Assembly (NCBI RefSeq): GCF_028471905.1
Contig: NZ_CP116902.1
Span: 1,524,501 to 1,588,500, forward strand
Direction: 5' to 3'
Origin: Aneurinibacillus uraniidurans
Lineage (GTDB): Bacteria > Bacillota > Bacilli > Aneurinibacillales > Aneurinibacillaceae
DNA length: 64,000 bases
This document shows positions 1,466-57,375 of this stretch, piece after piece; positions within the stretch are counted from its first letter, which is position 1; the number at the start of each line of letters is the position of its first letter. Below the pieces are notes generated by a model. That model made no database searches. It saw only the letters and a list, made by a program, of their open reading frames with translations, and was not told the DNA's origin. A program made the translations under genes and the position numbers.

Positions 1466-1912
1466 GTGTCTTATAAAATTGATGAGTCGCTCGGGTTTAT
1501 TCTGAGTAACACTCAGCGGAAATTAAGTCATTTTTTGTTATCCAAATTCAAACCGTATGACATTACGACAGAACAATGGGTTTTAGTCGCCAAACTAGGA
1601 GAAGAGAACGGAATTACGCAGAAGGATTTAGCCGAGCGAACGGAGAAAGACCAAGCAAACGTGACCCGGATTATTGATCTGTTAGAAAAAAAGGGACTGG
1701 TTAGACGGGAAAAAAACAGTACCGATAGAAGATCGATGCTCGTACATCTGACTGATGAAGGAGAAAAATTACGAGAAATGCTGGCGCCAATCGAAGAGTC
1801 AGTCGTGAATGTATCGCTATCGGGCATGTCTGAGGAAGAAAAGGCGTTATTGAAAGATTTTCTTGCCCGCATCGCGGCTGCTATACAGAATGAGTGTCAA
1901 GATCAGGATTAG
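1466..1912 (+). CDS. MarR family transcriptional regulator
   Basis: Winged helix-turn-helix protein of about 148 residues. ITQKDLAERTEKDQANVTRI is the recognition-helix region and KNSTDRRSMLVHLTDEGE the wing, both typical of MarR. The start is uncertain: GTG 1466 has a GAGAGGGG at a spacing of about 11, while ATG 1439 lies 18 bases after GGAGAAGGAG. That stronger site instead fits a tiny ORF, ATG 1428 to TGA 1446-1448 (MGITCI), which overlaps ATG 1439 and may matter for translation. The neighbouring EamA exporter gene is the likely target, a common MarR-exporter pairing. The ligand is unknown. Confidence 0.85.
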   Translation: MSYKIDESLGFILSNTQRKLSHFLLSKFKPYDITTEQWVLVAKLGEENGITQKDLAERTEKDQANVTRIIDLLEKKGLVRREKNSTDRRSMLVHLTDEGEKLREMLAPIEESVVNVSLSGMSEEEKALLKDFLARIAAAIQNECQDQD

Positions 1913-1979
1913 ATGTTTATTATATAAAATATTGAATTTTCTCTATTTTTGTTTTATCATTTACATAATGAAGGTTGTT

Positions 1980-2046
1980 GTACGTAACTGGCGAAGCGTG
2001 GATTACCACGAGGAAGCGTACAGATTATATAGCCGTACGCCTGGGC
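1980..2046 (+). promoter_or_regulatory. ZTP (pfl) riboswitch aptamer
   Basis: P1 pairs GTACG 1980-1984 with CGTAC 2017-2021. Inside it are AACTGGCG and a P2 hairpin, CGTGG 1997-2001 with CCACG 2006-2010 around ATTA. After a short linker comes the conserved GCCGTACGCCTGGGC (2032-2046). GGCG 1990-1993 can form the expected pseudoknot with CGCC 2038-2041. Layout and conserved bases agree with the pfl/ZTP class, which senses ZMP/ZTP, purine intermediates that build up when 10-formyl-tetrahydrofolate is short. An intrinsic terminator follows within four bases, giving the usual ligand-ON expression platform. Assigned by eye, not by covariance model. Confidence 0.82.
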
Positions 2047-2049
2047 GAA

Positions 2050-2084
2050 AGTATTTGATTAGTTTACAATCAAATACTTTTTTT
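2050..2084 (+). terminator. Riboswitch expression-platform terminator
   Basis: A perfect 11-bp stem (agtatttgatt 2050-2060 with aatcaaatact 2068-2078) around a 7-base loop is followed by six T residues. It begins directly after the ZTP aptamer and ends about 38 bases before the transporter start codon, so it can only act as an attenuator for that gene. Confidence 0.9.
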
Positions 2085-2121
2085 GTTTGTAACATACATA
2101 GTGAAGCGGGAGGAGAGAGGA

Positions 2122-3327
2122 ATGGAGAAGACAAGTATAATGCGAGATGTTTCGATGTCGGCTGTGGTAGCCGGGTTCATTGCTACGATTGTATCGTATG
2201 CGGGACCTTTGTTAATCGTATTTCAAGCAGCGAAGGTAGCAAATCTAGGTGATGCATACGTATCTTCCTGGATATGGGCGATTTCGCTTGGGAGCGGTCT
2301 GACATGTCTGCTGCTTAGCATCTGGTTTCGTTCACCTGTTATTACGGCCTGGTCAACACCGGGGCTTGTGCTGCTCGTGTCTAGCTGGTCAGCGTATAGC
2401 TATTCAGATGCGATTGGTGCATTTGTTTTTTCTGCCGTTATGGTTACGATTTTAGGTGTAACTGGTGTTTTTTCTGCTGTGATGAATCGGATTCCGTATG
2501 CGATTACAACGGCCATGCTGGCGGGAATTTTGCTGAAGTTTGGAATTGAGGTGTTCGTGTCGCTACAGAAACTGCCCACACTTGTTCTGCCGATGATTGT
2601 GTGCTATTTAGTGGCAAAGCGTTTTTTGCCGCGGTATGCCGTAGCGCTCACGCTATGTGTAGGGTTGCTGCTAGCGTATGGTCTTACGGAGTTCACGTTT
2701 AGCACGATACATGCAGCGATGGTTAAGCCAGTTTTTACAAAACCGACCTTTTCATTTGATGCGATAATAGGGCTGGGTATTCCGTTGTGTGTAGTGGCGA
2801 TGGCTTCTCAAAATGCGCCGGGGATTGGGGTGCTGCGAGCTGATGGATACAATACGCCGATCAACCCGCTTATTACAACGACAGGGATTGCTTCGCTGCT
2901 TTTCGCTCCGTTCGGTTCGCACGGAATAAATCTGGCTGCCATCACAGCGGCGATCTGTACAGGAAAAGAAGCGCATCATGATAGTAGAAAACGCTATATT
3001 GCTGGAATTTCCTGCGGCGTGTTTTATATCATATTCGGTACGTTTGGTGCCACGATCTCATCGCTCGTCTCTTCCTTGCCAGGAGAATTAATTGCTGTAC
3101 TTGCCGGATTAGCTTTATTTGCTTCCTTAAGTGCAAGTCTTGCATCTGCAATGAAGGAAGAAGCACAGCGAGAAAGTGCGCTTATTACATTCCTAGTTAC
3201 CATATCGGGTATCTCAATCGCGGGGATTGGCTCCGCGTTCTGGGGATTGATCGCAGGAGTGGTAACCAGCTTTATTCTAACAGGGGATGTACGTACGGCT
3301 TTACGGAAAAAAAGCCGGGCAGCATAA
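2122..3327 (+). CDS. BenE-family (benzoate/H+ symporter-like) transporter under ZTP riboswitch control
   Basis: About 401 residues and roughly 12 membrane segments, with the BenE features VITAWSTPGLVLL, IPYAITTAMLAGILLKFG and NAPGIGVLRADGYNTPINP. BenE carriers (TC 2.A.46) resemble nucleobase transporters, and the named substrate is benzoate. ATG 2122 follows GGAGGAGAGAGG with good spacing; an upstream TTG at 2083 lies in the terminator T tract and is unlikely. No aromatic degradation genes flank it. Control by a ZTP riboswitch ties it to purine/one-carbon need, so 4-aminobenzoate, the folate precursor, is an attractive substrate, but this is inference. Confidence 0.85.
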   Translation: MEKTSIMRDVSMSAVVAGFIATIVSYAGPLLIVFQAAKVANLGDAYVSSWIWAISLGSGLTCLLLSIWFRSPVITAWSTPGLVLLVSSWSAYSYSDAIGAFVFSAVMVTILGVTGVFSAVMNRIPYAITTAMLAGILLKFGIEVFVSLQKLPTLVLPMIVCYLVAKRFLPRYAVALTLCVGLLLAYGLTEFTFSTIHAAMVKPVFTKPTFSFDAIIGLGIPLCVVAMASQNAPGIGVLRADGYNTPINPLITTTGIASLLFAPFGSHGINLAAITAAICTGKEAHHDSRKRYIAGISCGVFYIIFGTFGATISSLVSSLPGELIAVLAGLALFASLSASLASAMKEEAQRESALITFLVTISGISIAGIGSAFWGLIAGVVTSFILTGDVRTALRKKSRAA

Positions 3328-3394: not shown

Positions 3395-3485
3395 AAGGTG
3401 TGTCAACAGGGAGAAGCGCACGGTCACAGTGGAGAAGGTGAAAGGTGACCAGAGGGGTCTGTTGCATAAACAGGCCTTTTTCTTT
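3395..3485 (+). promoter_or_regulatory. cssR: Structured leader with terminator-like hairpin before cssRS
   Basis: Three hairpins follow one another: GTGTGT with GCGCAC (about 3398-3421), GGTCAC 3422-3427 with GTGACC 3445-3450, and GGTCTGTT 3456-3463 with AACAGGCC 3469-3476 followed by a T run. The last looks like an intrinsic terminator only about 40 bases before cssR. It either ends benE transcription, with a weak TTGCAT-17-TACTCT promoter overlapping it, or attenuates cssRS. No known riboswitch class was recognised. Confidence 0.45.
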
Positions 3486-3523: not shown

Positions 3524-4204
3524 TTGCCATACCGCATCTATTTAGTAGAAGACGAACAGAACTTAAATCAACTTTTGGCAACGTATTTACAAAACGAGGG
3601 GTGGGACGTTACCTCTTTTTTGAATGGTGGCGATGCCCGGCAGGCGATTGCTCGGCAGCCTGATTTGTGGGTTCTTGATATTATGCTCCCGGATGTGGAT
3701 GGATACCAGCTTATCCGGGAGATTAAAGCACAGGCGCCAGATGTTCCGGTTATTTTTATCTCCGCGCGAGATGCAGAACTTGACCGTGTGATCGGGCTTG
3801 AGATGGGAAGTGACGACTACCTGCCGAAGCCTTTCCTGCCGCGTGAGCTGGTCATTCGGGTTAAGCGGCTGCTTAATCGGGTATACAATGTGGTTTCGAA
3901 TGCAGTGGAGGCGGGGAATGTACTTCATATTGCGCCGTATACAATCGATGAAACGAAGCGGATTGTGACGCGGGACGGTCAAGAAATTGAGCTGACATCG
4001 AAAGAGTTCGATTTACTTTTGCTGTATGCCAAAAACCAGGGGCAGGCGTTTGCGCGGGAACAAATCTTGCGCCGCGTCTGGGGGGAAGACTACTTCGGTA
4101 CGGATCGGGTAGTGGATGATCTGGTGCGTCGGGTACGAAAGAAAATGCCAGAGCTGCGTATTGAGACGATATATGGATATGGCTATCGGATGGTACAGAT
4201 ATGA
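3524..4204 (+). CDS. cssR: Response regulator CssR (secretion stress)
   Basis: OmpR/PhoB-type regulator of about 226 residues. The receiver has VEDE at 8-11, the phosphorylation site Asp52 in LDIMLPD, and KPFLPREL; the C-terminal winged helix contains LTSKEFDLLLLYA and ends with ETIYGYGYRM. The sequence resembles B. subtilis CssR throughout, including FISARDAELDRVIGLE. Together with CssS it senses misfolded exported protein and induces HtrA-type proteases. TTG 3524 sits 5 bases after GGGGTGAG; GTG 3515 overlaps that site and is less likely. Stop and the cssS start overlap in ATGA, so the two are translationally coupled. No htrA gene lies nearby. Confidence 0.92.
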   Translation: MPYRIYLVEDEQNLNQLLATYLQNEGWDVTSFLNGGDARQAIARQPDLWVLDIMLPDVDGYQLIREIKAQAPDVPVIFISARDAELDRVIGLEMGSDDYLPKPFLPRELVIRVKRLLNRVYNVVSNAVEAGNVLHIAPYTIDETKRIVTRDGQEIELTSKEFDLLLLYAKNQGQAFAREQILRRVWGEDYFGTDRVVDDLVRRVRKKMPELRIETIYGYGYRMVQI

Positions 4205-57081: not shown

Positions 57082-57094
57082 TATGAAGTTCTCC

Positions 57095-57240
57095 CTTCTT
57101 CCATCCAGACTATACTGTCGGTCCCGGAATTACACCGGGTCAGCCGGACGCATACGATTTGCATCCGGGTCGCGGACTGCGGAACGAGTAAGAGGTGTTC
57201 CATCACCGCCGGTCGGGAATTACACCCTGCCCTGAAAGGA
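57095..57240 (-). promoter_or_regulatory. ribU: FMN riboswitch (RFN element) of ribU
   Basis: Read on the minus strand from 57240, the conserved RFN parts appear in order: tttcagggcagggtg, aattcccgaccggcggt, gtccgcgaccc, ccggctgacccggtg, aattccgggaccgacagt and agtctggatggaagaa at 57098-57113. The ribosome site of ribU lies only a few bases past the aptamer, so FMN binding probably blocks translation; no terminator stem was found between aptamer and gene. Confidence 0.93.
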
Positions 57241-57375
57241 GTTGTGTTTTTGTTCACAACCTATGTAGAACTATGCCACGAAAATAGAAAATCGTCAATA
57301 CTTCACATATTTCACACAATTTTTTTTTATAATGAATGTATTATGTAATGGAAGTGATCATAAGGAGAGAAAATC

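Follow-up and report, generated by a model that had tools for sequence, protein, structure and literature searches.

Why would a riboswitch for ZTP, a signal from the purine pathway, stand ahead of a gene annotated as a benzoate transporter, and what might such a transporter carry? The question arose in a 64,000-nucleotide stretch of the Aneurinibacillus uraniidurans genome (hereafter the window). We think it quite probable that the locus holds a ZTP riboswitch controlling a one-gene transcript for a BenE-family importer, which belongs to the regulon that answers shortage of 10-formyl-tetrahydrofolate (10-formyl-THF).

The ZTP leader and the gene behind it

The features on which this reading rests are as follows.

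1912-3326, plus strand: leader and benE stretch missing from the closest same-genus genome (genome comparison)
1932-1960, plus strand: putative sigma-70-like promoter, TTGAAT-17-TATCAT, a consensus match only, about 14 nt 5' of the aptamer (consensus scan)
1974-2053, plus strand: ZTP/ZMP (pfl) riboswitch aptamer (RF01750)
2048-2085, plus strand: intrinsic terminator, arms 2048-2060 and 2068-2080 followed by a T-run, abutting aptamer helix P3
2108-2113, plus strand: Shine-Dalgarno sequence GGGAGG (direct sequence reading)
2122-3327, plus strand: gene for a BenE-family transporter of 401 aa, ATG at 2122 (PF03594, TIGR00843)
3451-3481, plus strand: terminator-like hairpin 3' of benE, ahead of the two-component genes (consensus scan)

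The RF01750 covariance model, whose gathering score is 39, matched the leader at 59.8 bits (E 3.3e-7 over the whole window) with all 86 model positions covered, so the pfl/ZTP aptamer proposed in a first-pass annotation of this DNA stands. It is the only ZTP switch of the host genome (3.85 Mb, 99.9% complete) at E <= 0.001. Every invariant column of the ligand-site and pseudoknot core (ACTGGCG ... GCCGNNCGCCTGGGC) is retained, and alignment shows this conserved core to be common to 24 other ZTP switches. The aptamer is thus predicted from its sequence to bind ZMP/ZTP. By analogy with the published description of the class, from which an ON switch is expected (PMC2864571), it is most likely a transcriptional ON switch. 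The window also contains an FMN riboswitch on the minus strand (57089-57243; RF00050, 117 bits).

The gene behind the leader matches the BenE family over its full length, scoring 474.8 bits with PF03594 and 420 bits with TIGR00843 (cut-off 203). Since the hairpin at 3451-3481 closes the unit ahead of the two-component genes, benE is the sole gene behind the switch, as the first-pass annotation had it. That annotation had also noted a lack of aromatic catabolism genes nearby, and we agree: the neighbors are EamA, MarR and two-component genes, no ben or aromatic genes adjoin, and there is no operon partner.

The terminator had been described as a perfect 11-bp stem straight after the aptamer. 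It is indeed perfect and abutting, while its length is 13 bp, with a stability of about -12 kcal/mol when the outer G-U pair is included. Across the window and four homologous leaders on Priestia plasmids, 98.1% of stem cells are paired, compared with at most 52% in slid controls, and three stem pairs differ on both sides between the window and those four leaders. The terminator is therefore conserved as a structure.

One feature of this terminator counts against our preferred reading. A terminator 5' arm that overlaps P3 is the layout expected for the published strand-displacement mechanism, and six scanned ZTP loci (L002, L004, L057, L059, L065 and L076) show such overlaps, of 7-15 nt. The window terminator begins directly 3' of P3 (offset 0) with almost no overlap, and its 5' arm does not take the 3' strand of P3 (CCTGGGC); in lacking P3 displacement it is unlike most of the ZTP terminators scanned. 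The only competing structure that we saw was a weak 5-bp helix enclosing P3, to which we give no weight. The Priestia plasmid leaders share the abutting layout, and so do two further ZTP leaders: one precedes a purT-like gene (L003 488-568, minus strand) in a member of the host's family, the other a serC-like gene (L068 1501-1581, plus strand). Both genes were named by eye. PurT provides a formate-dependent bypass of 10-formyl-THF.

Under the mechanism that we propose, a short supply of 10-formyl-THF would leave AICAR unformylated, ZMP/ZTP would rise and bind the aptamer, and the abutting terminator would then fail. The resulting one-gene transcript, a ZTP riboswitch joined to the message for a putative importer with the SLC23/26 fold, would allow BenE to be made. 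Because induction would come with 10-formyl-THF shortage, the cargo should be something that relieves a one-carbon or purine shortage.

Recurrence and origin of the ZTP-benE pairing

Recurrence of the pairing elsewhere had been suggested as a check, and a census of the class Desulfovibrionia, sulfate reducers unrelated to the host, bore it out. Among 247 genomes, 46 carried a total of 47 ZTP switches (RF01750). Downstream lay glyA in 31 cases, BenE in 13 and a gene left undetermined in 3; the 31 serine hydroxymethyltransferase calls were made from the conserved protein start, with one confirmed by Pfam, and all 13 BenE cases were confirmed with an independent model. These 13 proteins are 53-57% identical to the window BenE. 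The genomes that encode them fall into two subclades, have leaders of their own and contain a single ZTP match each. TGA or TAG codons appeared as 'stops inside' some of the Desulfovibrionia BenE matches; we think that these are the natural stop codons of the genes, reached where the alignment ends. BenE occurs in 32 of the 247 genomes, which makes adjacency by chance negligible: a rough estimate that treats related genomes as if independent is of order 0.002 (47 x 32 BenE genes / (247 x ~3500 genes)). A scan of named genomes, made with an alignment-based query after a single-protein query had returned nothing, placed a ZTP switch 5' of BenE in Nitratidesulfovibrio liaohensis, Desulfovibrio sp. 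A2 and a 'Proteobacteria' MAG. We took the recurrent tie of BenE to ZTP aptamers in the 13 Desulfovibrionia genomes as the mark of membership in the ZTP regulon. From this recurrence in organisms unrelated to the host, the transporter probably helps to restore the supply of one-carbon units or purines, and benzoate is probably not what it carries.

ZTP control is not general for BenE proteins of the window type. RF01750 found no match at 20 Brevibacillus-type orthologues (60-71% identical) or in a group at 48% identity, and no ZTP switch was seen in the Brevibacillus, Desulfosporosinus and Pseudomonas relatives examined. Inheritance of the switch together with BenE from Brevibacillus-type orthologues was rejected, as all 20 of those scanned lack it. 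Within the class Bacilli, two scans compared by coordinates put ZTP and BenE side by side in G000 only. A tree built from 104 BenE proteins puts the window protein into a clade of Bacillota whose sister is that of the Desulfovibrionia, and the ZTP label requires three changes on it. An AU test, run on a quickly made tree in which some branches are long, rejects a single ZTP-BenE clade, that is, one origin through protein descent. Together with the three label changes, this makes more than one origin of the link probable.

Could the riboswitch have come to lie before benE by accident, through a rearrangement, with the transporter having no role in one-carbon stress? The leader's own relatives speak for this. 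Window positions 1978-2092 share 75-82% identity with leaders on Priestia plasmids that serve a different gene, AICAR formyltransferase in four of the five records that show the downstream gene (L319 is the exception), and the host leader seems from its sequence to have been recruited from a relative of these. In addition, BenE orthologues exist without the switch, and the cassette is missing from the sister species G004, the closest same-genus genome. There, the MarR gene directly joins the equivalent of window position 3327 onward, and leader and benE are both absent, so the cassette may have been inserted in the host or lost from G004. The pairing in the host may accordingly be young. Set against accidental capture is the same pairing in the 13 Desulfovibrionia genomes, with their two subclades and own leaders, and we regard capture without function as very improbable.

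The surroundings of these leaders also vary. The EamA gene beside MarR (window positions ~302-1385) is likewise missing in G004; with the ZTP-benE cassette absent as well, both flanks of the MarR gene are variable. On the Priestia plasmids, L320, L321, L322 and L338 carry a stand-alone AICAR formyltransferase under a ZTP switch. In L319 (Priestia megaterium pNCT2_1) the ZTP leader and terminator at 3997-4076 have no gene directly behind them and are followed by an IS256 transposase; this leader looks like a decaying orphan because its P3 is mutated (GCCG to ATCG).

The BenE protein and its candidate cargo

The AlphaFold2 model of the window BenE (pLDDT 87.7) has the SLC23/SLC26 (NAT) fold, with 14 helices and strands in TM3 and TM10. 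Its closest solved folds, found with Foldseek at E 1e-9 and TM 0.6-0.67, are UraA, UapA and SVCT1, carriers of uracil, purines and ascorbate. Identity to them is just 14-16%, and a sequence search found no related solved structure, solved NAT proteins included.

Residues that may line the cargo site differ within the family. Positions 79, 267 and 270, which by the SLC23/26 fold would face the site from TM3 and TM10, are T79/H267/N270 in the window protein and in 120 of 153 aligned relatives; these residues may set the cargo. They are A/I/V in L314 and in L302, where benE sits between benD (above its cut-off) and the gene of an aromatic-acid MFS carrier. The window BenE is only 44% identical to this BenE beside benCD. 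A79 is found in only five of the aligned proteins, three of them with visible ben or aromatic-MFS neighbors. The "benzoate transporter" label of the family is misleading, and the argument of the first-pass annotation from benzoate specificity loses its footing.

That annotation had proposed that BenE imports 4-aminobenzoate (pABA), with folate shortage sensed as ZTP and a folate building block taken up in response. The logic would fit a ZTP regulon, and pABA resembles benzoate, the substrate implied by the family's annotation as benzoate/H+ symporters. The host, however, has a complete pabB-pabA-pabC-folP-folB-folK operon. Its pabB-like gene (499 aa) falls short of the curated cut-offs for both pabB and trpE and was named pabB from its operon; trpE lies in a separate trp operon. 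Two genes matching TIGR00553, one TrpE-like and one PabB-like, are present in 12 of the 13 Desulfovibrionia with ZTP-linked benE, the 13th (G399) being a fragmented draft. With pab genes present in both settings, there is no pABA auxotrophy, and we rejected it as the reason for import, although scavenging by a prototroph is still conceivable. Since, in addition, the BenE beside benCD differs at the TM3/TM10 motif and the neighbors of benE are amino-acid, PLP or SAH genes rather than folate synthesis genes, we consider pABA import quite unlikely: it is one cargo candidate of several, and not the leading one.

Gene neighborhoods of BenE relatives point elsewhere. Among 80 named relatives, a divergent MocR regulator accompanies benE in 44, glyA is a neighbor in 9 and RidA/DAO-type genes occur in 12-14. 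In genus g33 (L099, L124 and others) benE lies directly between a yggS-like gene on its 5' side and a glyA paralogue, with a MocR regulator nearby. In some Desulfovibrionia (L291 2667-4171; L280) benE is followed by an ArsR-methyltransferase gene and ahcY, and the ZTP switch there controls glyA. Judging by gene content, these neighborhoods suggest serine/glycine and PLP metabolism (glyA, MocR, RidA, DAO) or S-adenosylhomocysteine recycling (ahcY), not pABA. A BenE-GlyA functional link was predicted independently, as was a BenE-family "putative pyridoxine transporter" in PdxR regulons (Suvorova and Rodionov 2016, PMC5320631). Serine supply itself is under ZTP control elsewhere: ZTP switches in tandem with glycine switches control the gene that starts serine synthesis (PMC9481103), and the serC-like gene of L068, named by eye, is a further case.

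Taken together, these neighborhoods and the ZTP control of serine supply weakly favor an amino acid that donates one-carbon units over nucleobases and vitamin B6. We therefore rank a serine-type donor feeding serine hydroxymethyltransferase ahead of nucleobases, vitamin B6 and pABA, as a tentative front-runner. We know of no serine carrier of the SLC23/26 fold.

A cell stalled at AICAR might instead use BenE to shed AICA, the nucleobase of the accumulating intermediate, or to import purine bases; a purine carrier was the alternative offered in the first-pass annotation. The purine-pathway origin of the ZTP signal, the solved folds closest to BenE, and the Desulfovibrionia in which benE adjoins ahcY, which encodes an adenosine-releasing enzyme, would all suit such a carrier. 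The likeness to solved NAT proteins is nevertheless at the level of fold, with no sequence match, and the glyA/MocR neighborhoods carry no hint of purines; nucleobase transport is a possible but rather unlikely cargo. Vitamin B6 import, which would provide serine hydroxymethyltransferase and further PLP-dependent enzymes with PLP, draws on the MocR and PLP-enzyme genes that adjoin benE and on the predicted pyridoxine transporter of the PdxR regulons. That prediction was made for MocR regulons and not for ZTP (PMC5320631). In addition, the ahcY product is not a PLP enzyme and B6 would be a weak answer to 10-formyl-THF shortage, so we hold this candidate to be unlikely.

Extending the serine-type reading, the whole T79/H267/N270 clade, annotated as benzoate symporters, could consist of importers of serine-type one-carbon donors that came under ZTP control at least two times and are under MocR control elsewhere. 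We offer this as a conjecture that will more probably fail than hold.

Significance and comparison with known systems

The regulatory claim, that a ZTP riboswitch is tied to BenE, is strong on computational grounds, and since the link recurs in two phyla it is not easily dismissed. If it is true, the ZTP regulon gains a transporter, and folate stress alters what the cell imports and not only what it synthesizes. An orphan family whose members are widely annotated as carriers of benzoate would gain a connection to one-carbon metabolism through a regulator that reports one known metabolic state, and its cargo would thereby be open to direct testing. The riboswitch class is known, whereas its association with BenE, of which the tables in Kim et al. 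2015 may hold a prior mention, appears in no paper of the literature searched.

With the ZTP/ZMP class (pfl motif, RF01750) the window switch shares a full aptamer, the conserved core and a terminator that follows directly. It differs in that this terminator abuts P3 without consuming its 3' strand, and in controlling a BenE-family transporter; published ZTP gene lists comprise purH, fhs, pfl, glyA, folD, metH and serine-synthesis genes (PMC2864571, PMC9481103). The Priestia plasmid leaders of AICAR formyltransferase are homologous to it in aptamer and terminator, with compensatory changes in the stem, and stand before a purine enzyme where the window has a transporter. As a protein, the window BenE matches the benzoate/H+ symporter models far above both cut-offs and departs from the symporter beside benCD in its T79/H267/N270 residues and its lack of adjoining ben genes. 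Another known parallel is the MocR-regulated BenE-GlyA transporters (PMC5320631), which belong to the same family, are linked to glyA and share an amino-acid/PLP context. There the regulator is a PLP-dependent protein, while in the window it is a ZTP riboswitch, and in the tree those transporters and the window BenE occupy sister clades.
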